Source: an uncultured Ruminococcus sp. (GTDB taxonomy: Bacteria; Bacillota; Clostridia; Oscillospirales; Acutalibacteraceae). From it: 64,000 nucleotides of DNA. This document shows, one piece after another, positions 17,044 through 48,996 of this stretch (position 1 is the first letter of the stretch; each line of letters begins with the position of its first letter). Under the pieces are notes generated by a model that saw only the letters and a program-made list of their open reading frames with translations, was not told the origin of the DNA and ran no database searches. A program made the position numbers and the translations under genes. The DNA lies in NCBI GenBank assembly GCA_902762615.1, contig CACWOX010000011.1, positions 1 through 64,000 of the forward strand, in the 5' to 3' direction.

Positions 17044-18504
17044 TTGAATAACGGCAGCAACAGAAATTACGGCTATCCTCAGGGAAGAAGCTCCCGTTCG
17101 TCAGACAGTTATTCCGGAGGCGGATATTCTCAAAGCGGAAGCTCCCGCTCTTCGGGCGGATATTCCGATGACGATTATTATCAGAGCAGAAATTCACGCT
17201 ATGCCGGCAGCTCTTCGGGCAACTACTCCGGCGGCAATTACTCCCAAGGCAGAAGCTCCCGCTCTTCGGACAGCTATTCCGGCAGCTCTTCAGGCAGCTA
17301 CTCCGGCAGCAATTACTCCCAAGGCAGAAGCTCCCGCTCTTCGGGCAGCTACTCCGGCGGCAGTTACTCCCAAAGCAGAAGCTCCCGTTCTTCGGGCGGC
17401 TACTCCGGCAGCAATTACTCCCAAGGCAGAAGCTCCCGTTCTTCGGGCGGCTACTCCGACAGCAATTACTCCCAAGGCAGAAGCTCCCGCTCTTCGGGCG
17501 GCTACGCCCGAAGCCCTTACCGATCGCCTAAAGACAACGACGAAAAAATGCCGATATCCGTATTTATCGGCATAGGCATTACAGCTATTGCGGTCATTGC
17601 GCTGATCATTTCCATCTCTGTCAACAGCAACAAATCCAAAAACCGGAATTCGGCATATGACGACAATCTCACATCTCAATCTAACGTCAGCGGAGCAACC
17701 ATCATCGAGATACCGGACGAATCCGATACATCGGACGAAACCGAGTCTTCCAAACTGACTGCACAGAGCTTTGTCGGCACATGGTACAAAACTGACGTTT
17801 CACAAACACAGAAGGCAATCTTCATTATCACCATGCAGTATGAGGACAGCTTTGAATTCCGCCTTGAAATATGGAATGATAATGAAAGCGCCGTAATTAA
17901 CGATACGGCATTCTATACCGATGAAACGCACGCCGAATATTCTCCTAAAAAGAATGCAAAGATTATTTTTGAGAGAGGAACGGATTACGTCAGCATTACA
18001 CACACCGGCAGCAATTCATCGTTGGGTATTAAAGACAAATTCACCGTCGACGGTAAATTCACCGAACTTGAGCCGGATTATGCATCTCAAACCACCACAA
18101 CAACCACAGCCAATTCAAAAGTCACCTATGATTACAATATTTACAAATCCGACGCCGTGGTAAAAGCACTGTCAAGCAGGCTCTCGTCTGATGACTACGC
18201 TCTGTACAAGGACATGATGAAAAACGGGCTTAAATCGCCGATAGATTACGAGCGCACCAAAGACAAAAACGGCAAGCTGGTCAACGTCGATTCCGAACTC
18301 AATGCCGTGAAGTATTACGCTCACCTTAGCAGCAGCGGCTCGGATATGATCTTCATTTGCTCCGACAACGCTAATATATATGTGTTATTTTACAACAGTG
18401 AAGAAATTATCTATTACACCAATGACAAGAATTATGCCTCAAAAATGCCTGCATCGTTTCAGGCGGTTGCCAAGGCAAAGGACATAAAACCAACCTTCAA
18501 ATAA
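17044..18504 (+). CDS. membrane-anchored protein with Tyr/Arg/Ser/Gly low-complexity repeats
   Basis: 486 aa, not a recognised family as a whole. Residues about 8-160 are a low-complexity segment built from a 17-residue unit of the form GGYSGSNYSQGRSSRSS, with tyrosines and arginines evenly spaced. A single transmembrane helix follows (about 171-193), then an acidic Ser/Thr linker and a beta-rich domain starting FVGTWYKTD (about 243-251), and a C-terminal alpha/beta region. With the Arg-rich segment ahead of the helix, the positive-inside rule puts the repeats in the cytoplasm. TTG start at 17044 with a weak ribosome site. It heads a likely operon with the two downstream genes (gaps of 30 and 24 bp). 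Confidence 0.75.
   Translation: MNNGSNRNYGYPQGRSSRSSDSYSGGGYSQSGSSRSSGGYSDDDYYQSRNSRYAGSSSGNYSGGNYSQGRSSRSSDSYSGSSSGSYSGSNYSQGRSSRSSGSYSGGSYSQSRSSRSSGGYSGSNYSQGRSSRSSGGYSDSNYSQGRSSRSSGGYARSPYRSPKDNDEKMPISVFIGIGITAIAVIALIISISVNSNKSKNRNSAYDDNLTSQSNVSGATIIEIPDESDTSDETESSKLTAQSFVGTWYKTDVSQTQKAIFIITMQYEDSFEFRLEIWNDNESAVINDTAFYTDETHAEYSPKKNAKIIFERGTDYVSITHTGSNSSLGIKDKFTVDGKFTELEPDYASQTTTTTTANSKVTYDYNIYKSDAVVKALSSRLSSDDYALYKDMMKNGLKSPIDYERTKDKNGKLVNVDSELNAVKYYAHLSSSGSDMIFICSDNANIYVLFYNSEEIIYYTNDKNYASKMPASFQAVAKAKDIKPTFK
17083..17496 (+). repeat. degenerate 51-bp coding repeats
   Basis: Tandem in-frame repeats encoding the 17-residue Ser/Gly/Tyr/Arg unit. The last three units, 17344-17394, 17395-17445 and 17446-17496, are nearly identical; earlier units are more divergent or of other lengths. 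Near-identity at DNA level makes copy-number change by slippage or recombination likely. Confidence 0.9.
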
Positions 18505-18534: not shown

Positions 18535-19269
18535 ATGAGCACGTTCAACCTGCTGATTATACTGCTATTCATACTGCTTTTTGGAGCAAGGCTCTTCATG
18601 TACTGCGTCAATATTGAAATGCCGCGTGTTTCGGAGGTCATTACTCTTGTGATGATGCTTATGCTTATTTGGGAAATCATCATAGCAATATTTGAATTTC
18701 CTGCTGCGCTCATTGACGGTATCATATTCATATGCATGGGAAACAAAGCCATAGCTATAGGCTGCGGCGTGGTCATTCTGATCGTATTGGTCTTTATCTT
18801 TATCATTATTTTCCCAAAGATCAAGTGGAATAAAATTCTGTCGTTTTCACCTCTGAAATATGCCATAATCGGCATGCTGCTGATATTCGCAACGATTTAC
18901 ACCGAGCTTTTCAACGGCAGCTACTCGTTCAAGGATTTGGACGAATACAACGAATTCAAGCAGGAATTTTCCCAATACGACAATCACTTCTGGCCGACCA
19001 AATTCATACGCGAGGTCGAGGACAACGGCAGAGAGATACTCACCAAAACCTCGGTCTATCCGTGGGATGTGTCGATTTCCGACGGCAAACAGTTTGCCTA
19101 CAAGGTTGTTACCTATTACGATGAAAGTGAACTGACAAACCAGCCGATTTTATACTACTATCCGTTCACCTACAATACCTATGCGGGCGTTGACCCAAGA
19201 CCTGTACTCAAGGCTGACGCCGTATCGGCAAGCGATTTGAACAATGTGAGCGATTCAGACCGAAATTAA
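18535..19269 (+). CDS. hypothetical polytopic membrane protein
   Basis: 244 aa. Four predicted membrane helices in the first 125 residues (approximately 5-24, 34-54, 70-92, 100-120), then an outer domain of about 120 residues with many aromatic residues (YDNHFWPTKF, YYDESELTNQPILYYYPF). No family recognised. The start is taken as the ATG at 18535; a GTG at 18523 directly abuts the GGAAAGGG ribosome site and is less likely. It lies 30 bp after the low-complexity protein gene and 24 bp before the SEC-C gene, so the three are probably co-transcribed. Confidence 0.65.
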   Translation: MSTFNLLIILLFILLFGARLFMYCVNIEMPRVSEVITLVMMLMLIWEIIIAIFEFPAALIDGIIFICMGNKAIAIGCGVVILIVLVFIFIIIFPKIKWNKILSFSPLKYAIIGMLLIFATIYTELFNGSYSFKDLDEYNEFKQEFSQYDNHFWPTKFIREVEDNGREILTKTSVYPWDVSISDGKQFAYKVVTYYDESELTNQPILYYYPFTYNTYAGVDPRPVLKADAVSASDLNNVSDSDRN

Positions 19270-20497: not shown

Positions 20498-21865
20498 TTA
20501 TTCTTCCGATGAAACTTCTTCCTCCGCTTCGGAAAATACATCGACATGCTCTTCTTTAGATTGCTCACTTGAAAGTTCATTCGTCAGCTCATCGGAAATA
20601 TCATCCGATGTTTCTGATGATTCGGCGTGGGTTGTGGTAACAGCCCCCGATTCGCTGCCTGATGAGGAAATATTGGTGCTGACAGCGGTCTTTTGCTCCG
20701 TTCTGTAATAGCTCTTGTTCATGAAGCTGATTCCCACGACAGAATCCTCCCTGACAGCATATTCAATGATCCAGCTTCCTGTGGTATAATTATGCTCCAT
20801 TATTGAGTTGCATCCGTACTGTACTATATAGTCGCAATCTTCAAATTTGAACGTATGCTCTTTGCCGTTGTAATACTTATCAAGGTAACTGCCTATGCTG
20901 TACACCCTGCCGCCCACAAACGTGTATAAATTTTCGGCTGCAAGTATCGAATTGAGCTTATTCTGATCCTTTATTACATCTGACGCTCTGTAAAGTGTGG
21001 TCGCTCCGCCATTGACACAGAGATATCCGTCTGTGAGCTGCGCCAGAGTGGCTCCTATTCCGATCTTTCTGACTGGAACAATGCCAAACGTCGCCTCTGT
21101 CCATGTAACGGATGAAATATTGCATCCTGCGCCTCTGTTTTCATCGAGCCATTGAAAATTTATGATCTCGTCGCTGTTTATGCTGCCGGATTGCTCTATT
21201 TCAGAAAAATCCTCAGTCAAAGGCTTCACATGCAGCGTTACGCTGCCGAGATTTGATTCCAGTGTAACCTTAATACACCCGTTATCGCTGAACTCCGAAC
21301 AATCCCAGCTGACCGATGAAGGCGACAGCTTATCCACAAAATCTCCCAGCGTGCTCAGATCATCCGCAATGGAAGACACATCGTTATAATTAAACGGCTG
21401 CATATTGTTTGAAACTCTCTCTGTATCACTCTGCTCCGGATCGCGGTTGGCGGCAGTGGTAGAAGATGTCTGCGATGTGACGGTAGTGGTAACAGTGGTC
21501 TGTTCGTCACCGGTGGATGATGTGGCAGATGTGGTGCTCTGAGTATCTTCCTGAATTACTGTATCTTCATCTTTATCCTTCTTTTTCTCTTTTGCGTCAA
21601 AATTCTTCTTATATTCCTTGTACGCTCTCTTAACGACTTCCGAATCGTCAAATCCTAATTCAACAGTCTCTGCTACCGTTATCTCTGTGACGGCAGAATC
21701 AGAAGGATTGTAAACCTTAGCGCCATTGTCGGCGGTCAGCGATCTTCCTCCGTGCCTCATACTGCTTAACGAAACGATAGACAGTGCAGTAAGCATAGAT
21801 ATAGCCAGACAAAGACCGCACGACGTGCATAATGAATGTCTGCTTTCTTGACTCGGCTTTTTCAT
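20498..21865 (-). CDS. membrane-anchored exported protein, paralogue of the 21915-22916 product
   Basis: 455 aa. One membrane segment near residues 17-34, a charged Lys/Glu stretch (about 80-100), a Ser/Thr-rich linker, then a beta-rich domain and an acidic Ser/Glu tail. The end of the main domain (IVQYGCNSIMEHNYTTGSWI, then VVGISFMNKS) aligns with IIRYGFNSIVDTDEASGQWY and VVGIYYQMKS in the neighbouring gene, so the two are paralogues. Ribosome site GGAAGG. No known family recognised. A surface-exposed protein of unknown role. Confidence 0.65.
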   Translation of the reverse strand: MKKPSQESRHSLCTSCGLCLAISMLTALSIVSLSSMRHGGRSLTADNGAKVYNPSDSAVTEITVAETVELGFDDSEVVKRAYKEYKKNFDAKEKKKDKDEDTVIQEDTQSTTSATSSTGDEQTTVTTTVTSQTSSTTAANRDPEQSDTERVSNNMQPFNYNDVSSIADDLSTLGDFVDKLSPSSVSWDCSEFSDNGCIKVTLESNLGSVTLHVKPLTEDFSEIEQSGSINSDEIINFQWLDENRGAGCNISSVTWTEATFGIVPVRKIGIGATLAQLTDGYLCVNGGATTLYRASDVIKDQNKLNSILAAENLYTFVGGRVYSIGSYLDKYYNGKEHTFKFEDCDYIVQYGCNSIMEHNYTTGSWIIEYAVREDSVVGISFMNKSYYRTEQKTAVSTNISSSGSESGAVTTTHAESSETSDDISDELTNELSSEQSKEEHVDVFSEAEEEVSSEE

Positions 21866-21914: not shown

Positions 21915-22916
21915 TCAGTCGTCAGCGCTTTTCATCTGATAATATATGCCGACAACCTTTGAATTGGCTGTTGCGTAATCTATGTACCACTGACCGGATG
22001 CTTCATCGGTATCGACAATGGAATTGAATCCGTAGCGTATGATATTTTTGCTGTTGTTGGCAAACGGATACGCGTCGGGATTGTCCTTGTAGTTATATTC
22101 GATCATGGTTGTGGTTTTGTAGAGCTTGCCGCCGATATATGCCTCTTGGGCTTTATCGTACTTTTTGATCTTGGCGCTGTCGGTCAGCACATCCTTCATT
22201 TCATAGAAGATGTATGACTTGGCAGGTTCCGGATCTTTATAGTAGGCTTCGGAAATATCTGCATAAGCAGTGCCGATCTTAACGCCTCTGGGAAGAGTGA
22301 AATTCATCTTGTTTGAAAACCAGACAATCGCCTTGGCTCGACACTCTTTCTTTTTGCACTTATCATAGATTTCCCACTCGGTCACGTCTTTGCCCGAGCC
22401 TACTACCTCGCCGTTGATGGTGTAATTGGGAGCTTCATATGGCACACCTATCACCGCATAGCTTCCGTCGTAAGCAATCAGCTTTACTTCCACCTCGCCG
22501 GTCGCTTTGATATTGTCGGTATTCCATTCGTAGGATGCGGGACTTACCGCCTTGACAAACTGCGCAAAGGTCTTGATGCCCTCCGTAATGCCGTCGATAT
22601 CACTTCTGCCGAAAAAGCCGGTTTTCTGAGCCTTTTCTTCTTTGGACGAAACATCGGATTCTGCGGAAGATTCGGAGTCGCTGCTGACCTCGCCTTCGCC
22701 GTCTTCTTCCTCGTCTTCGTCATCTATTATAATGATTCGGTTGCCGTCTGAATCCACACTTACTGTTTCGGTGTAATCCTTGTTTCCGCTCTTGCCTTTG
22801 TTGTCGGAGCCGCTGCCGTTTATTCCGGTTATCGTAAAGAACAGCAGTATAATCACCAAAACTGCCGCAAAAGCCGATGCCAGACCGATCACTATGCCTT
22901 TGGTTTTTTCGTCCAT
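21915..22916 (-). CDS. membrane-anchored exported protein, paralogue of the 20498-21865 product
   Basis: 333 aa with a cytoplasmic tip (MDEKTKG), a membrane helix at about residues 7-29, a strongly acidic linker (DDEDEEEDGEGE near residue 66), a Ser/Glu stretch, and an outer domain of about 230 residues sharing its layout with the next gene (GVKIGTAYADI versus GIGATLAQL; see that entry for the C-terminal match). Probably co-transcribed with it, 49 bp apart, from the promoter at 22998-23026. Not assigned to a named family. Confidence 0.65.
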   Translation of the reverse strand: MDEKTKGIVIGLASAFAAVLVIILLFFTITGINGSGSDNKGKSGNKDYTETVSVDSDGNRIIIIDDEDEEEDGEGEVSSDSESSAESDVSSKEEKAQKTGFFGRSDIDGITEGIKTFAQFVKAVSPASYEWNTDNIKATGEVEVKLIAYDGSYAVIGVPYEAPNYTINGEVVGSGKDVTEWEIYDKCKKKECRAKAIVWFSNKMNFTLPRGVKIGTAYADISEAYYKDPEPAKSYIFYEMKDVLTDSAKIKKYDKAQEAYIGGKLYKTTTMIEYNYKDNPDAYPFANNSKNIIRYGFNSIVDTDEASGQWYIDYATANSKVVGIYYQMKSADD

Positions 22917-24311: not shown

Positions 24312-24339
24312 GATTATTGATTATTGATTATTGATTATT
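24312..24339. repeat. four 7-bp tandem repeats (GATTATT)
   Basis: GATTATT four times in a row, overlapping the stop codon of the zinc-ribbon gene (24335-24337). One of a group of heptameric repeats near stop codons in this window. Confidence 0.85.
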
Positions 24340-25537
24340 TCAGCTGATATACTACCTGAACATTGGTATCGACATTGATAAATGTTCCTGTCTTTCCGTC
24401 TATTATATAGTATAGCCGTTTTATGTCGCCGTCCTCATACATTATCGTCAGCATATCGTGTCCGTTTTTCCTGTTGGTAGTGTACTTTCCCTGCTTGTGG
24501 ACATGCCAGCCGTCATCTGATTTTACTGAAATCATTGCCCTGCCGCCCGGTTTGAATTCCATTATTATATTCGGGCTGCCGTCTGAATCGGTGGAAACGA
24601 TCCATTGACCGTTGATATCCGACGACATCATCATATTGACCACTATCAAGCCGCAGAGCAGCAGCACCACGATAAAAAAGACAACGCCCCATACCCGTCG
24701 GCGAAGATAGTAGCCTTCGCTGTCATCCTCAGCCCTCTTGCGCTTCATGCTGCCGAATTTCTTATAGTAGACTTTTTCCAGAATCCCATTTATAAAGCCG
24801 GAGGTTTTTGCATCAAACTTATCGTAAATTCTCCTGCACCTGTCAAGCACATTCCTGCGGAAAAATCCCTTGATTCTCAGCACAGCACCGTCGTACTTTT
24901 CCCACATGGATGTGAGAATTTTGTCAAGCCCCTTTTCCTCCGGGAACTCGCTGAGTCTCTTTGCCGCTTCCGACATTTCAGAGTCGTCGTTGTCTGCATC
25001 AGATGACGTATTGGCAGAATGATCGGCTGCACTGTTTTGAGATTCTTTTTTCCTATCGTTTTGTGCGATTTCCTGATCGAGCTTTTGAAAGCTCTGTGCA
25101 AGCTGGTATCTTTCGAGATCGGTGATGCCATCCTTGAAGTAATACTCCGCCAGCAGATCGTCCTCCTTGTTGTTTACCAGATGGCGAATGCTTGACGAAA
25201 GATCGCGGTGTCTTCTGTCATATTCATTTTCTGTATCTATCATGGAGGAAAGATCTACCGGATCAAAGCTCTCATCGGGAAAATTATTGGCGGGATTGTG
25301 CTCAATTGGCTTTTCCGGAATTGTTTCTTCCGGTCTGTCAAATTTAAGCACAGGTGAAAAAGAGGCGTCCGACAAATCAATGTCGGATACCTCGGTTTCT
25401 CTTCGCATGACTGAGATCTGTTTGCGAACACGGGTCATGGTGTCGCCATCCGGCACAGCAAGCCTTGCCGATGTGCCGCAATTCGGACATCTCTCAGAGT
25501 GTGGATTAAGTTCCTGGTTGCACTTTGGACATCTCAT
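24335..25537 (-). CDS. zinc-ribbon, single-TM protein with outer GxW domain
   Basis: 400 aa. An N-terminal zinc ribbon (Cys3, Cys6, Cys17, Cys20: CPKC ... CPNC) is followed by a long disordered, charged cytoplasmic region, a transmembrane helix at about residues 282-304 and an outer domain starting INGQWIVSTDSDG with predicted beta strands. The same architecture recurs in the neighbouring genes. Ribosome site AGGAGGT. Likely co-transcribed with the genes at 25569 and 26410. The order of domains suggests linkage of a cytoplasmic partner to the cell surface, but no function is known. Confidence 0.7.
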   Translation of the reverse strand: MRCPKCNQELNPHSERCPNCGTSARLAVPDGDTMTRVRKQISVMRRETEVSDIDLSDASFSPVLKFDRPEETIPEKPIEHNPANNFPDESFDPVDLSSMIDTENEYDRRHRDLSSSIRHLVNNKEDDLLAEYYFKDGITDLERYQLAQSFQKLDQEIAQNDRKKESQNSAADHSANTSSDADNDDSEMSEAAKRLSEFPEEKGLDKILTSMWEKYDGAVLRIKGFFRRNVLDRCRRIYDKFDAKTSGFINGILEKVYYKKFGSMKRKRAEDDSEGYYLRRRVWGVVFFIVVLLLCGLIVVNMMMSSDINGQWIVSTDSDGSPNIIMEFKPGGRAMISVKSDDGWHVHKQGKYTTNRKNGHDMLTIMYEDGDIKRLYYIIDGKTGTFINVDTNVQVVYQLK

Positions 25538-25568: not shown

Positions 25569-26405
25569 TTATTCCACTCTGTTTAATATCCACACAGTAT
25601 TATCAACTGTAAACTCTATTTTATCGTCAGTGATAAATTTCAGATTGCCCACCATAGTATCGTTGTCAAAATATTCCTCGAGACCGTCGAGCGTAAGGGT
25701 GCATTTGCCGCCGTCCTTTATTTTGTACGATCCTTCAAACTTTTTAGAGAAGAGAAAGGCTTTAATGGTACATTTTGCATTTCCCTTGCCGTCGAATTCA
25801 AATACCCCCGGCAGCGTCATATTTTTATAGGGAACATCGGTGCTCCACTTGCCCTTGATTTTTTTGTTCATATACTTTGCAGTCAGCTCCTCGGGTATTT
25901 CGGGTTCGGACGAAACCTCCTGAGAAGAAAGCGCCTCGGATGAAACCGGTTCAGAGCTTACCTCTGAGGATATATCCTGTGAACTAACCTTACTTTGTGA
26001 CGAAACATCCATCATCTCATCTGCCTCATCAATGAAAGCAGATTTCTCGGAGAAATAATCGCTAAGGAACACCGAGCCTGCCACCATGACAATCACCAAT
26101 GCCACAGCTGCAAAGACAATCAAAAAATATTGCAGACAGCCCTCTGATCCGGTTTTGACATGTGGGTTATTTGTTATTTTACCTGTCTTTTTATTGACAT
26201 ACACGTATTGTACCGAATTAGGATCGGCTTTTTGCGGCTGGGGATTCTGTGCCTTATTCTTCGCTGTATCTTCACGCGAAGGCGACCTGCCGCTGACAGG
26301 CGCTGCATTGCCTGCGTTCGTTCTGTTAACTACCTTTTCACCGCAGCCCGGGCAGAATTGAGCCTTATCATCGAGCTTGCGTCCGCATTTTCTGCAATAT
26401 ATCAT
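25569..26405 (-). CDS. zinc-ribbon, single-TM protein with outer GxW domain
   Basis: 278 aa. Zinc ribbon Cys4/Cys7/Cys18/Cys21 (CRKC ... CPGC), a short linker, a membrane helix at about residues 91-112, a Ser/Glu-rich stalk (repeated EVSSEPVSSEAL-type units, about 140-172) and an outer beta domain that opens KIKGKWSTDVPYKN and ends near FTVDNTVWIL. The stalk looks like an extracellular spacer. It starts 4 bp after the stop of the upstream gene, so the two are translationally linked. Unknown function. Confidence 0.7.
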   Translation of the reverse strand: MIYCRKCGRKLDDKAQFCPGCGEKVVNRTNAGNAAPVSGRSPSREDTAKNKAQNPQPQKADPNSVQYVYVNKKTGKITNNPHVKTGSEGCLQYFLIVFAAVALVIVMVAGSVFLSDYFSEKSAFIDEADEMMDVSSQSKVSSQDISSEVSSEPVSSEALSSQEVSSEPEIPEELTAKYMNKKIKGKWSTDVPYKNMTLPGVFEFDGKGNAKCTIKAFLFSKKFEGSYKIKDGGKCTLTLDGLEEYFDNDTMVGNLKFITDDKIEFTVDNTVWILNRVE

Positions 26406-38839: not shown

Positions 38840-39769
38840 TTATTTTTCGCTGTTATAGTCAATCTTGCCATAGGTAAAGCTGCCCTCGTAATCGCTCTTA
38901 GGAGCGGACGTTGCACGGCTGTCAGAATCATAGTTTCTTGAATAATTATTCCTGTCACGATAGCTGCCTCTGCCGCCACGATTATAACTGCCCTTGCCGT
39001 AACCGCCTCTCCCGCTGCGGTTGTATTCTCCTCTACCGCCGCGATTGTAACCGCCCTTGCCGTAGCTTCTGCCGCCGCGATCTCTGCGGTTGCCGCCCAG
39101 CTTTGCATACTTCACGGGAATACCGTCGGCGCCTTCATCAAGTCCCTCAGGACCGATAACAACATGACGCTTTTCATTCTCGCCCACCGACCAGCTTGTC
39201 ACGCCGTCTATTTCCTGTACGGCAGTATGAATAATGCTTCTCTCATAAGGGCTCATCGGTTCAAGAGCAATATTCTTCTGGAGCTTGACAGCCTTGTAAG
39301 CAGTCTTGGAAGCAACTGTTTCAAGCGTCTTTTCGCGCTTCTCTCTGAAATTCTTTACATTAAGAGACACCTTAAAATATCCGTCACATGCATTATTAGC
39401 AGTAAGGCTGACCAGATACTGCAAGGCTGTAAGCGTGTCTCCCCTATGACCGATCACTACGCCAAGATCATCGTCGTTACCGTTGATATTAAGAATCGTG
39501 CGTTCCTCAGTCACCTCTTCGGTGATTTCAAGATCCTTGACTCCCATATTCGTGAGAATGTCGGTAAGATAAGAAATCGCTACTGAAGCAGGCGTCTCTT
39601 TAACATAAACCCTTACCTTTGCCGGAGCACCGCCGAAAATACCGAGAATTTTTTGCTGAGGCTGTTCAATTACTTCATAGTCAACATCTGACTGTTCCAC
39701 ATCAAGCTGAACGCAGCCGTTTTCAATTGCTTCTTCTACCGTAGCACCGGTAACAATTATTTCCTTCAT
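38840..39769 (-). CDS. jag: RNA-binding protein Jag (KhpB) with RGG-rich tail
   Basis: 309 aa. A Jag_N domain (1-50, MKEIIVTGATVEEAIENG) is followed by a KH domain (about 80-150, with VIGHRGDTLTALQYLVSL) and an R3H domain (about 155-215, ERSIIHTAVQE). The last 95 residues are unusual: an Arg/Gly/Tyr-rich stretch of units such as KGGYNRGGRGEYNRSGRGGYGKG. Jag/KhpB binds small RNAs and regulates cell elongation and envelope synthesis. RNA-binding RGG tails are rare in this family. Ribosome site AAAGGACG. Follows yidC, as in most Firmicutes. Confidence 0.93.
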   Translation of the reverse strand: MKEIIVTGATVEEAIENGCVQLDVEQSDVDYEVIEQPQQKILGIFGGAPAKVRVYVKETPASVAISYLTDILTNMGVKDLEITEEVTEERTILNINGNDDDLGVVIGHRGDTLTALQYLVSLTANNACDGYFKVSLNVKNFREKREKTLETVASKTAYKAVKLQKNIALEPMSPYERSIIHTAVQEIDGVTSWSVGENEKRHVVIGPEGLDEGADGIPVKYAKLGGNRRDRGGRSYGKGGYNRGGRGEYNRSGRGGYGKGSYNRGGRGSYRDRNNYSRNYDSDSRATSAPKSDYEGSFTYGKIDYNSEK

Positions 39770-43992: not shown

Positions 43993-44028
43993 AAACAGTC
44001 CCGGGGTAAAATCCGAGGCTGTTTTTTT
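43993..44028 (+). terminator. terminator after dnaA
   Basis: 12-bp stem with one mismatch, AAACAGTCCCGG (43993-44004)/CCGAGGCTGTTT (44013-44024), then T run to 44028. Confidence 0.88.
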
Positions 44029-44464
44029 CGTATTTGACCGGTATTAACGGTTGAAAAGCTGTTTAAACCACGTTGAATCGCTGTTAAAAACCCAGCCGCC
44101 GTATTTTGCTCAATCTGTTGGCATTTAACCTGATATTTAACAATCAACGTGGAAAGCTGTTAAAGATTGTTAATTGTTGAATACTGTGCAAAACCTTTCC
44201 CACCATATTCAAATCTGATTCAACAGAAAAAGATTTCAAAAATCGCCGTTTTATGAGAATCGAAGAGATTTTTAACAGATTCAACACCCCCTACTGCTGC
44301 TGCTGTACTTAACTTATAATTATTATTATATTCATTTTCAAAATATGACTGCTCCGCGCAGCAAAATTTTTCCTTCGCAGTTTTCCACACTGCACGTTAA
44401 AAACATACACGCTCTTTTCCAATCCCGTTTCCATAAAAATATCCGTGATTTTACAAACTCGCAC
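44029..44464. other. oriC, part 2 (dnaA-dnaN intergenic region)
   Basis: No gene. Contains DnaA boxes TTTTGCACA (minus, 44185-44193) and TTTTCCACA (plus, 44381-44389), an AT-rich tract 44310-44346 that could be the unwinding element, and four copies of GTTGAAT/ATTCAAC (44072, 44176, 44218, 44279) with nearby CTGTTAAA motifs. Together with 42200-42437 it forms the bipartite Firmicutes-type origin. Confidence 0.8.
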
Positions 44465-44493
44465 TTGTATTCATTTACACAATAAGCTATAAT
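44465..44493 (+). promoter_or_regulatory. promoter of dnaN
   Basis: TTGTAT (44465-44470), 17-bp spacer, TATAAT (44488-44493), 38 bp before the dnaN ATG. Confidence 0.75.
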
Positions 44494-44530
44494 AAAAGGT
44501 ACGACAGTAAACTGAAAGGAACGAAATAAT

Positions 44531-45640
44531 ATGAAAATAAAATGCAACCGCGAAATGCTTTCCGACGCTATCAACAAGGTTTCCAGAGCCGTAGCGCTGC
44601 GCTCCACCATGGCAGCATTGGAGGGAATATATTTCCGCACCGAGGAAAGCTCGCTTTATATCTGCGGATACAACCTGGAACTCGGCATATCTACCAAAAT
44701 ACTTGCCAACGTCTACGAGGAAGGCAGCGTTGTTCTTTCCTCCAAACTCTTCTGTGAAATTGTCAGAAAGATGCCCGGAGACGAGCTGGAAATCAACTGC
44801 ACTGAAAATCTGATTACCACCATACGCTCCACCGACGCGGAATATTCTATTATAGGCATATCGGCTTCCGATTTTCCCGAGCTTCCCGTCATTGAGAGCG
44901 ATCACAGGATATCTCTTCCTCAGGGAATGCTCAAATCTATGATTTCACAGACCATTTTTGCAGTCAGCGATAGCGATTCCCGTCCGACCTGCACAGGTTC
45001 TCTCTTTGAAATAACCGAGAACAGAATACGCATTGTCTCAGTGGACGGTTTCCGGCTTGCCATGCGCACCGAAGCGATCACAGGCACTTTCGACACTTCA
45101 TTTATCGTGCCTAAAAAGACGCTCGAGGAATTACTCAAGCTGCTCGAGGACGACGAGGAAAAGCGCGCTGAAATTTGCGCGACCCGCCGACATATCGAAT
45201 TTATGATCAACGGCTGCACCATCATATCCAGACTCATCGAAGGAGATTTTCTCGATTACAACAATGCCATTCCCGCGCAGAATGACAAGGAAGTCAGGGT
45301 CAGCACACGCCGCATGATCGAGGCAAGCGAGCGCATGGGTCTGCTCATCAGCGACGCTATCAAGAGTCCTGTGCGCTGCGTTTTCGGCAATGACGAGATC
45401 ACCTTCAACTGCCGCACAGCGGTAGGCTCGGCAACCGACAGATTTTCCGCCGACGCACCCAACGAGCCTTTGGAGATAGGATTCAACAACCGCTATCTGA
45501 CCGATGCCTTCAGGGCTGTTTCCACCGACGAGGTGCGCCTGATCATCGGTTCTCCGGTCAATCCCGTCAAGGTGCTGCCGCCGGAGGGCGAGAATTTTCT
45601 GTTCTTGCTGCTGCCGGTCAGACTGCAAAAGAACGATTGA
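44531..45640 (+). CDS. dnaN: DNA polymerase III sliding clamp, beta subunit
   Basis: 369 aa with three repeats of the clamp fold (MKIKCNREMLSDAINKVSRA start; C-terminal KVLPPEGENFLFLLLPVRL with the family ending LPVR). A ring dimer tethers the polymerase to DNA. GAAAGGA lies 9 bp before the ATG. In the canonical position between dnaA and yaaA/recF. Confidence 0.98.
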   Translation: MKIKCNREMLSDAINKVSRAVALRSTMAALEGIYFRTEESSLYICGYNLELGISTKILANVYEEGSVVLSSKLFCEIVRKMPGDELEINCTENLITTIRSTDAEYSIIGISASDFPELPVIESDHRISLPQGMLKSMISQTIFAVSDSDSRPTCTGSLFEITENRIRIVSVDGFRLAMRTEAITGTFDTSFIVPKKTLEELLKLLEDDEEKRAEICATRRHIEFMINGCTIISRLIEGDFLDYNNAIPAQNDKEVRVSTRRMIEASERMGLLISDAIKSPVRCVFGNDEITFNCRTAVGSATDRFSADAPNEPLEIGFNNRYLTDAFRAVSTDEVRLIIGSPVNPVKVLPPEGENFLFLLLPVRLQKND

Positions 45641-45695
45641 TTTTTATATTTATTATTGAAAAAATATTTTAATAAAAAATTACGGAGCTGGTTTT

Positions 45696-45926
45696 GTGGA
45701 ACACCGTATTATAAAAATCTCGACCGAGTTTATCAAGCTCGACAGCCTGCTTAAATTCGCCGGAATAGCAGCTGTCGGAGGGGAAGCGAAATTCATGGTG
45801 ACGTCAGGCGCAGTCACGGTCAACGGCGAGGTCTGCACCATGCGCGGCAAAAAAATCCGCCCGGGCGACATTGTCACGATTCCCTGCGACAGCGTGGAGC
45901 TGGAGGTAAAGGGCGTTAGCGTATGA
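45696..45926 (+). CDS. yaaA: S4-domain protein YaaA
   Basis: 76 aa. A compact S4 RNA-binding domain ([27 protein letters not shown]... KKIRPGD), the conserved small protein between dnaN and recF in Firmicutes. Role in ribosome assembly or quality control is suggested by family, not shown. GTG start at 45696 with GGAG upstream. Overlaps the recF ATG by 4 bp (ATGA), coupling their translation. Confidence 0.93.
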
Positions 45927-47020
45927 TAGCCCGCAGACTTTACACGCAGAATTATCGCAATTTATTTTCAGACGATATAGAATTTGCCGACGGCGTCAAC
46001 GTCATCAGCGGTCAGAACGGACAGGGAAAGACCAACCTGCTTGAGGCGCTCTGCCTTTTCACCGGCGTGCGCTCCTTCAGGGGGGCGAAGAATCTCGAGC
46101 TGATAGCCAAAGGGGAAAAATTTGCCCGCATGGAGCTTGATTTCTTTGCCGAAAAGCGCGAGCAGAGCGCCAGCCTTGTTATCACTGACAAGAAGCAGGC
46201 AACTCTCAACGGGGTCAGGCTGACGGCAGCTACGGGATTTATCGGCAGATTCTGCGCGGTGGTGTTTTCGCCCGACAACATGAGCCTTGTCAAAGGCGGC
46301 TCGACCGAGCGCCGGAGATTCCTCGACGCGGCGATATCCCAGCAGTTTCCGACATATCCGCGGCTGCTGGTGGAATACAACCGCATACTCGCGCAGCGCA
46401 ACGCCTTTCTCAAAAAATCAGCCACGACGGCAGGCTTTGAGTCAATGCTGGAAATATGGGACGAAAATCTCTCCATGACAGGGGCAAAAATCTCCTGCAA
46501 GCGTGCGGAATATGTTTCTCGCCTGAGTGGGAAAGCGGTCGAGATTTTCGACGGCATTTCCTCGGGAAGAGATACCATCGGACTGCGCTATTCATGCAGC
46601 TATTTAAATCCCGAATCGGTGAGCGAGACGGCAGCCGCGTTAAAAAATCAGCTGGAAGCCCATCGCGCCTCCGATCTTGCCCAAGGCTGCACCAATTACG
46701 GCGCTCACAGGGACGACCTGCACATTTCGGTCAATGATATGGCTTCGCGTTCATACGCCTCTCAGGGGCAGAAGCGTTCCTGCGTGCTGGCTCTCAAGCT
46801 GGCGGAGGCGTCGCTGCTGGAGCAGTCGGCAGGGGAGAGACCCATCGCCGTGCTGGACGATGTAATGAGCGAACTGGACGGCTTGCGGCAGGATTACCTT
46901 CTCAATCACATGGACGGCTGGCAGGTGTTTATATCCTGCTGTGACCCGCATACGGTCAAGGGTCTGGACAAGGGACGGATTATTGCCGTAGAAGGCGGGA
47001 AATTTTCCGCCTTGCAATAA
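45923..47020 (+). CDS. recF: DNA replication and repair protein RecF
   Basis: 365 aa SMC-like ATPase: Walker [10 protein letters not shown] (about 31-39), LSxxQ-type signature region around [18 protein letters not shown] and Walker B-type [12 protein letters not shown] near the C terminus. It helps load RecA at gapped DNA with RecO and RecR. Starts inside the yaaA stop and is followed by the remB gene. Confidence 0.96.
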
Positions 47021-47073
47021 TGCTTTCAGTATGATTCATTACAGATCTTTCTGATAAAGGGGTTGATCATAAA

Positions 47074-47325
47074 ATGTATCTTCACTTAGGAAACAATTAT
47101 GTGATTCCCGAAAGGGAGATCATCGGTATATTTGACATGGACAACACCACGATATCCAAGCACACACGCAATTTATTGAGGCTTGCGGAAAAGGGCGGCA
47201 AGGTGACGGCTGTTACAAGCGATTTGCCCAAGAGCTTTGTGCTGTGCAGGGACGGCAGCGTTTATTTATGTCAGATTTCCCCCTCAGCGCTTGCAGGACG
47301 TGCCGAACAGGGCATAGGAATATAA
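47074..47325 (+). CDS. remB: extracellular matrix regulator RemB (DUF370)
   Basis: 83 aa. MYLHLGNNYVIPEREIIGIFDMDNTT start and SDLPKSFVL core are typical of the DUF370/RemB (YaaB) family, the small regulator found between recF and gyrB in Firmicutes. In Bacillus RemA/RemB affect matrix and osmoprotection genes. AAAGGGG precedes the ATG. Closed by the terminator at 47335-47378. Confidence 0.9.
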   Translation: MYLHLGNNYVIPEREIIGIFDMDNTTISKHTRNLLRLAEKGGKVTAVTSDLPKSFVLCRDGSVYLCQISPSALAGRAEQGIGI

Positions 47326-47334
47326 TTTCATAGG

Positions 47335-47378
47335 GCGTCATATTTTGAGTGTCACAGCCGAAATATGGCGCTTTTTTT
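47335..47378 (+). terminator. terminator after recF-remB unit
   Basis: 11-bp stem GCGTCATATTT (47335-47345)/AAATATGGCGC (47361-47371), one G-T pair, then T7. Confidence 0.9.
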
Positions 47379-47427
47379 GTTGTAGCAGCTGTTGCGTCGA
47401 ATTATTTGATGACTTTGTTAAAATGTG

Positions 47428-47456
47428 TTGAATTTTACGAGGAAATTTGCTATAAT
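47428..47456 (+). promoter_or_regulatory. promoter of CotH gene
   Basis: TTGAAT (47428-47433), 17-bp spacer, TATAAT (47451-47456). Sigma-A type, with no sporulation-type promoter visible. Confidence 0.75.
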
Positions 47457-47508
47457 TTTAGCAAAACAATACTGTGGTTTACGTTTTTAATGATGGAGGA
47501 AGCTTTTT

Positions 47509-48996
47509 ATGAAAGTCATCTTAAAAATATTAGCCTGTCTGGTCGCCGGATGTATGCTTTTCAGCATCATGACCGCACTGAAAATCAATGCCGATATGCT
47601 TTCGGAGGACAGCGTTCTGATTGACAGCCAGGAGGAACAGCCGGACCAGCAGGCTTTATATGAGGAATTGTTTGATCCGAACAGCGTGGTGGGAATTGAA
47701 ATTCATATTGCCAGGGAGCAGATCGCCGACATTCAGAAGGATTACGAGTATTACAGGAAGCTCAAGGCAAAGTCCACCACCTACCGCATTGCCGACAGCG
47801 TAACGTTCACCGTCAACGGCAGAAAATACGTTATCGAGGAAGTCGGCATACGCATGAAGGGCGAAAATTCGCGCTGCAATTTTTACAATGACATTCTGGG
47901 AATTTACAACCTGATCAATTTGCGCATCAGCTTCAACCAGACCTTTGACGACACAAGCGATTACGGGCTGGACGCAAAGGTCTGGAGCAGCGACCAAGAG
48001 CGTGAGCAGCGCAGGAAACGCACCTTTGCCACATTGAAGTCAATGGAGCTGAAATGGAATCAGACCGCCGACAATACCTATGTGCGCAACCAGTATGTCA
48101 ATGAGGTGTTTCGTTCGTACGGAATTCCGGCGCAGAAATGCTGTCTTTCAACGCTCTCTGTGAGCGGCTGCAAGCTGGGCATTTACAAGATATTTGAACC
48201 GATCGACGAGCAGTTTATTCACCGTAATTTCCCGCAGTCAGACTGGGGAGGAGATCTCTACAAGGCAAGGGGAACCAGCAGCTCAATTGCCGCATTCCTG
48301 CCGGAAAGCACCTATGGAATTGCCAAAAAACAAAAAGCGGAATTCTACAATTATGACCTGAAAACCAATACCGACCAACCAAATCACGAAAGTATGCGGC
48401 AACTGATCGAGGTGGTCAACCGTGAGGGCGTCACCAAAGATGAAATTGACAAAGTGGCGGACACAGATGAGCTTGCGCTTTTTCTCGCCATAAATTTTGC
48501 GATGGGAAATCAGGACGATATGCGTTGCAATTATAACAATTACTTCGTATATTTCCGCAAAAGTGACGGAAAGGCGGTATTTATTCCCTACGACTGCGAA
48601 ATAGTGATGGGTGACATATATTCATGGAACCCGCCGGGAAACGGCATGACAGAGCTTTCCCCGTATTTTATGCAGCATGCCGATTTCGACTTTGAGCAGG
48701 CAAATCCCTTAGTGTGTCAGGTCATTACCAGAAATGGCTGTTACAATGGCAAATATCAGTCCTTCCTGCGTGAAATTGCCCAAAGCAAATGGATGAAAGC
48801 CGAAACATTCCGCAGCTATTACAATCCCGCCGCGGCCAATTACGGCGACAAGGTCATTTCAAAATACAATTTCATGAGTACGATGAATATGAATCTCGAA
48901 TTTTCGTTGGAAGGCGGCGATCAATGCAACGGCAACATGTCGGTTGAGGAATTCATGGAAAAGATGAAGAAAAACATCATGGAAAATACCGACTGA
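47509..48996 (+). CDS. CotH kinase family protein, exported
   Basis: 495 aa. A hydrophobic N-terminal segment (LVAGC at 11-15 resembles a lipobox, but the hydrophobic residues continue, so an anchor is equally possible) precedes a CotH domain. Kinase-like motifs: IEEVGIRMKGENS (about 110-122), the FLAINFAMGNQDD catalytic-loop region (about 326-338) and IPYDCEIVMG for the metal site. CotH phosphorylates serines of spore-coat proteins; here a sigma-A promoter and outer location point to a surface, non-sporulation role. Inserted between remB and gyrB. Confidence 0.85.
   Translation: MKVILKILACLVAGCMLFSIMTALKINADMLSEDSVLIDSQEEQPDQQALYEELFDPNSVVGIEIHIAREQIADIQKDYEYYRKLKAKSTTYRIADSVTFTVNGRKYVIEEVGIRMKGENSRCNFYNDILGIYNLINLRISFNQTFDDTSDYGLDAKVWSSDQEREQRRKRTFATLKSMELKWNQTADNTYVRNQYVNEVFRSYGIPAQKCCLSTLSVSGCKLGIYKIFEPIDEQFIHRNFPQSDWGGDLYKARGTSSSIAAFLPESTYGIAKKQKAEFYNYDLKTNTDQPNHESMRQLIEVVNREGVTKDEIDKVADTDELALFLAINFAMGNQDDMRCNYNNYFVYFRKSDGKAVFIPYDCEIVMGDIYSWNPPGNGMTELSPYFMQHADFDFEQANPLVCQVITRNGCYNGKYQSFLREIAQSKWMKAETFRSYYNPAAANYGDKVISKYNFMSTMNMNLEFSLEGGDQCNGNMSVEEFMEKMKKNIMENTD

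Follow-up and report, generated by a model that had tools for sequence, protein, structure and literature searches.

The question raised by this locus is whether a long, repeat-rich tail at the N-terminus of a membrane protein in an uncultured Ruminococcus sp. has a function of its own and, if so, which of its residues carry it. The protein is encoded by ORF 17044–18504 (+) of the window, i.e., the whole stretch of 64,000 nucleotides analyzed here. A sequence-only reading of the same DNA had proposed that tyrosines in the tail could drive a FUS-like condensate on the membrane. We favor, at a probability of roughly 45%, a different reading, in which the tail would be a disordered, fast-turnover, arginine-based multivalent arm by which the protein gathers into clusters or is held by anionic partners.

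Gene call and distribution

ORF 17044–18504 encodes 486 aa and begins with a TTG start codon, which we consider credible, as 11 further homologues have a TTG at the corresponding position and stop codons were found two or three codons 5′ of it in L009 and L006; in L016 an ATG three codons upstream of the TTG offers an alternative start. The TTG pattern, together with the conservation of the outer part, rules out a wrong start or a chance frame. The source genome (2.99 Mb, 83 contigs) carries a single copy of the gene, which was present in 17 of the 18 genus genomes examined (the source and 16 further). In the remaining one (G004, 87% complete) neither this gene nor its partner gene (see below) was matched, which may reflect loss or an assembly gap. 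A profile of the outer part matched 10 of 300 sampled genomes of the family, four of these ten belonging to the same genus, while the source genome was the sole match among 394 sampled genomes of the order. Nine loci among genome contigs were assigned to uncultured Ruminococcus, Clostridiales, Clostridia, Bacillota, and Clostridium, five of them with RUG isolate names, which we take to stand for rumen. Tblastn against phages returned no match and a phage origin was ruled out. Pfam yielded no family at E ≤ 1 for the product, NCBIfam gave one weak match across the membrane helix (14.9 bits vs. a cut-off of 70), and no paper on the protein family was found among the literature matches listed.

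Domain organization and membrane topology

The N-terminal tail (residues 1–161; 17044–17526, +) is predicted to be disordered, as the AlphaFold2 model has no secondary structure over residues 1–173 (pLDDT mostly 31–36). It is followed by a single membrane helix (residues 174–193; 17563–17622, +), indicated by hydrophobicity and by a model helix of low confidence (pLDDT ~45–53), an acidic Ser/Thr linker (residues 194–242; 17623–17769, +; pLDDT mostly < 50), a predicted outer lipocalin-like beta barrel with a GTW motif (residues 243–345; 17770–18078, +; pLDDT mostly > 90), and a conserved C-terminal alpha/beta domain (residues 364–486; 18133–18501, +; pLDDT mostly 75–95) with many invariant columns across 18 aligned sequences. 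The single helix and the outer GxW beta domain of the sequence-only reading are thereby borne out, the latter as the predicted barrel (AlphaFold2, Foldseek).

The side of the membrane on which the tail lies was deduced from homologues. All 18 homologues have basic residues directly after the helix, so that the local flanks alone leave the orientation unfixed, and three of them (G003, G016, and G017) carry an acidic flank on the N-terminal side. The homologous outer module, however, also sits on proteins with a lipoprotein-type signal peptide, namely L070 (E 1.5e−13, tblastn, query residues 85–310 of 326) and L071 (barrel part, E 1.1e−10), whose lipoboxes were judged by eye, with L027 as a weaker case. 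The tail is therefore most likely cytoplasmic, as had been proposed. An extracellular tail, which the flanks would allow and even favor in G003, G016, and G017, was rejected in view of these lipoprotein homologues and of the basic N-flanks of L047, L049, and L069 (by eye).

Two other proteins of the window, encoded at 24335–25537 and 25569–26405 (both −), combine a zinc-ribbon-like motif at the N-terminus with one helix and an end of the G-x-W type, i.e., the layout described above with a zinc ribbon replacing the tail; only 25569–26405 passes the Pfam cut-off. A domain common to the tail protein, the zinc-ribbon protein 24335, and lipoprotein 13642 was rejected after an empty profile comparison, a weak test with single sequences.

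Repeat structure and turnover of the tail

The repeats that had been noticed in the N-terminal part are confirmed as eight blocks over residues 14–161 (17083–17526, +) of 17, 17, 21, 25, 17, 17, 17, and 17 aa, the last being degenerate; their borders were set by eye from the translation. Tandem Repeats Finder (TRF) recovered a 51-bp array of 4.3 copies (17285–17505, +; score 379, 93% matches), overlapped by a 75-bp period at 17198–17358 (2.1 copies, score 280). The description of the 51-bp units as near-identical holds for the second half of the repeat blocks, the first half being looser. Assemblies from short reads may shorten an array of this size (221 bp). Open frames at 17168–17575 (+) and 17290–17679 (−) cross the array in other frames, as expected where units are whole codons, and are no sign of additional genes.

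Tyr and Arg had also been described as evenly spaced. Against shuffled sequences this is true of Tyr (P 0.0015–0.004) but not of Arg (P 0.12–0.35), and the even Tyr spacing in the source species results from the repeats. Among four long tails without strong repeats it recurs in G005 (P 0.01) and not in G002, G013, or G084, and it was consequently rejected as a sign of selection.

Across the genus the outer part is conserved and the tail is not. Tails of 79–260 aa occur in 13 of 17 genus members and the other four have ≤ 69 aa (lengths measured in part from the start of the frame), the overall range being under 30 to 260 aa; the values for L010 and L011, both cut at contig ends, are minima. A clear period was found in ten of the 13 long tails (8, 10 in three species, 11, 12 in two, 13, 17, and 39 aa), i.e., units of seven lengths, and in G007 the repeats are confined to the second half of the tail. 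G002, G005, and G013 have long tails of the same composition type with a weak or no period. A tree of the outer parts, whose deep part is unsure owing to long outer branches, groups the 13 long-tailed species in a single clade (98/96); the four short-tailed species, which have no repeats, branch earlier. A separate tail of 201 aa, rich in Arg, Gln, and Tyr (30 Arg, 4 Lys, 18 Tyr), was found in another genus (L048, genome G084), whose three examined congeners have short tails; with this second long tail, the switch between short and long tails has occurred twice or more. Repeat units are thus replaced between species, in line with the quick change predicted from the near-identical units (one genome per species was compared). 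The sequence-only reading was to fail if close relatives lacked the repeats or kept a fixed structured domain in their place; this came half true, as the tail stays disordered in the relatives while these particular repeats are gone.

Arginine bias and column variability within the repeats

Residues 1–169 of the source species comprise 18 Arg, 2 Lys, 9 Asp + Glu, 21 Tyr, 63 Ser, 30 Gly, 8 Gln, and 11 Asn, with 29 charged residues (0.17). Pooled over the 13 long tails, Arg:Lys is 284:27, compared with 62:287 in their outer parts, and the Arg share of the tail exceeds that of the outer part in 13 of 13 species. Arg also outnumbers Lys in the four short tails and in L018, which lie outside this pool, and the ORFs of the window as a set (49 with ATG starts) have 0.43 Arg of Arg + Lys. 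Avoidance of AAN codons was ruled out as the cause of Lys scarcity, because the same 13 tails hold 181 Asn (212 in their outer parts). The bias is also present in the little-periodic tails of G002 (17:3), G005 (31:4), and G013 (30:4). As the long tails form one clade, part of it may be shared ancestry.

Tyr, on the other hand, makes up 0–15.8% of the residues across the long tails, and the repeat units of three species (G011, G015, and G012) have none. The net charge per residue ranges from +0.131 to −0.063, being positive in ten of 13 tails and slightly negative in G003, G016, and G017. Since charge, Tyr content, and length all vary, no single property other than Arg is held, and Arg, not Tyr, is the common feature of the long tails.

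Within ten arrays, columns with Arg or Tyr were invariant in 30 of 34 cases and other columns in 61 of 108 (P 8e−4), copies inside one array not being independent events. The difference persisted for Arg-only columns (18/20, P 0.011) and for Arg/Tyr against Ser + Gly columns (37/62 invariant, P 0.005). The pooled pN/pS of adjacent units was 0.46, with per-array values of 0.17–2.06 that were near or above 1 in three of ten arrays and highest in the source species, where inclusion of the end blocks inflates the value.

A second tail of the same genomes served as a control. The protein encoded at 38840–39769 (−), which we take to be KhpB/Jag-like, was found in 17 of 18 genus genomes and ends in an Arg/Gly/Tyr-rich C-terminal tail of stable length with 12–19 Arg, 4–9 Lys, and 9–15 Tyr (in the 15 of 17 tails that were listed). 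In G011, G015, and G012 this tail has 11, 11, and 9 Tyr, respectively, which rules out a genome-wide loss of Tyr-rich tails in the species with Tyr-free units. As the KhpB-like tail keeps Arg, Lys, and Tyr, the loss of Tyr and the lack of Lys are particular to the protein studied here.

Gene neighborhood

The adjacent gene (18535–19269, +), our candidate partner, encodes what is predicted to be a membrane protein, with several helices, a beta part at its C-terminus, and an uncertain fold (model pLDDT 59). It adjoins the tail-protein gene in all 16 further genus loci and in L018, and also lies next to L047, L048, and L049; it was not found in the stretches available around L045, L046, L069, L070, and L071. 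A NUDIX gene lies upstream in 13 of the 16 further genus loci and in L018, and was not found at L010, L011, and L017, whose flanks are short. A SEC-C gene lies downstream in 15 of 16, another gene taking its place in L009.

Further along the window, two adjacent membrane-type proteins at 20498–21865 and 21915–22916 (both −), each of which matches homologues of the other at 23–30% identity, are diverged paralogues. The GC skew changes sign near 46 kb (within about 44000–48000); this switch, between genes 39813 and 54269, presumably YidC-like and gyrase-A-like, would fit a replication origin.

What the tail may do

The favored reading describes an envelope protein that would be anchored by one helix, with the barrel and the C-terminal domain outside and the disordered tail inside. 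The working parts of the tail would be its many Arg, joined by Tyr in most species and set in a background of Ser, Gly, Asn, and Gln. The Arg residues, and Tyr in species that have it, could bind other tails weakly and likewise anionic partners, for which RNA, acidic proteins, and lipid head groups are candidates; such contacts may hold the protein in clusters or on a tether, along with the membrane protein from the adjacent gene. Tandem DNA repeats would be born, expanded, and replaced lineage by lineage, which is possible if composition, not order, matters. The Arg bias in 13 of 13 long tails, its presence where periodicity is weak, the separate G084 tail, the lower variability of Arg/Tyr columns, the pooled pN/pS, and the partner gene support the Arg-based arm, as do the contrast with the KhpB-like tail and the reported weakening of prion-like condensates by Arg-to-Lys replacement (PMC11820118). 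Against it stand the wide ranges of net charge, Tyr content, and length, the swollen state of two Tyr-free tails in the polymer model described below, and the spread of pN/pS among single arrays. That repeats were swapped while arginines were kept suggests a tail that may act as a loose, sticky arm for clustering; multivalent binding, clustering, and the identity of the partners are what we infer from this pattern.

The main rival, and a serious one even if we hold it to be rather unlikely, is a nearly neutral disordered spacer, in which slippage expands whole-codon repeats at a permissive N-terminus and selection acts only against sequences prone to folding, aggregation, or membrane insertion. 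The shifting units, lengths, Tyr content, and net charge agree with it, as do the short tails in four of 17 genus members and in three of four examined genomes of the genus of G084, and the three arrays with pN/pS near or above 1. A neutral spacer does not, however, account for Arg in place of Lys in every long tail despite plentiful Asn, for the recurrence of this bias in another genus and in tails lacking strong repeats, or for the lower variability of Arg/Tyr columns.

A bolder version of the Arg-based arm, which we consider doubtful, would see the tail as an evolvable clustering device with a grammar of Arg, hardly ever Lys, and optional Tyr, in which the repeat itself is exchanged outright between lineages; the birth and expansion of repeats would then tune membrane clusters in which RNA or KhpB-type RNA-binding proteins may take part.

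Still more doubtful is the proposed homotypic, FUS-like condensate driven by Tyr stickers, for which the 21 Tyr and 18 Arg among residues 1–169 of the source species speak. A rough Monte Carlo model of single chains (two runs each, convergence unproven; five of the 13 long tails) gave scaling exponents of 0.475/0.487 for the source-species tail, rising to 0.540/0.548 with Tyr replaced by Ser and 0.559/0.570 with both Arg and Tyr replaced by Ser; the near-neutral, Tyr-bearing G017 gave 0.453/0.460 and G005 0.514/0.496. Replacing Arg by Lys gave 0.495 and 0.558, a spread that, with the crudeness of the model, tells against a firm reading. A mild, small self-attraction of the source-species tail is thus plausible in the model. 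The Tyr-poor tails of G011 (0.582/0.583) and G015 (0.568/0.563), with Tyr-free units, were swollen, so self-clustering would not be family-wide, and by the same model Tyr-free tails would need an oppositely charged partner. The Tyr-free units of G012 and a charge fraction exceeding that of FUS-type domains also argue against a Tyr-driven condensate.

The least probable reading, an electrostatic or topological anchor in which a basic tail holds the N-terminus inside and hugs anionic lipid, could help where the flanks fail to fix the orientation and agrees with the ten net positive tails, but Lys would do equally well and is avoided, and the tails of G003, G016, and G017 are slightly negative with acidic N-flanks.

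If the Arg-based arm holds true, the family would be a natural experiment in which a disordered region keeps its function without keeping its sequence (one conserved protein bearing 13 long tails, units of seven lengths, a second origin in another genus), revealing what evolution retains of a sticker grammar (Arg in preference to Lys) and what it can dispense with (Tyr), and extending membrane-linked clustering to a group of uncultured Bacillota. A neutral spacer would instead make it a clean case of unconstrained repeat turnover.

Comparison with known systems

Like the prion-like domains of FUS, EWSR1, and hnRNPA1, the tail of the source species is predicted to be disordered, is rich in Ser, Gly, Tyr, and Gln, and has Tyr and Arg as candidate stickers, 9 of its 21 Tyr standing in a [GS]Y[GS] context. 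It differs in its higher charge (0.17, compared with 0.02–0.1 given for six prion-like domains including FUS and EWSR1 in PMC11820118), in carrying Arg within the repeat, and in its membrane anchor; furthermore, no RNA-binding domain was found in the protein, Tyr is dispensable in relatives, whose aromatic stickers are not conserved (G011, G015, G012), and phmmer with the tail against PDB returned no sequence at E ≤ 1, a weak test for low-complexity sequence. The same paper reports that replacing Arg by Lys destabilizes prion-like condensates (PMC11820118). On sequence grounds, the label "FUS-like" would fit the composition in the source species and neither a conserved grammar nor membership.

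The KhpB-like tail is likewise Arg/Gly/Tyr-rich and disordered, yet it is C-terminal on a soluble protein, keeps Lys, and is stable across the genus. With lipocalin/calycin barrels the outer domain shares a predicted barrel and an N-terminal G-x-W, and Foldseek listed several lipocalins among other barrels (probability 0.95–0.99 but E of 0.028 or worse); it differs from them in having no Foldseek match at E ≤ 0.001 and no Pfam or PDB sequence match. The mycobacterial ABC transporter Rv1747 is driven by FHA domains and phosphorylation, of which none were seen in the protein studied here, and no homology is claimed. Its disordered cytoplasmic part phase-separates and it forms nanoclusters in the membrane (PMC9312465); the likeness lies in a cytoplasmic disordered region on an integral membrane protein, with clustering as the candidate function.
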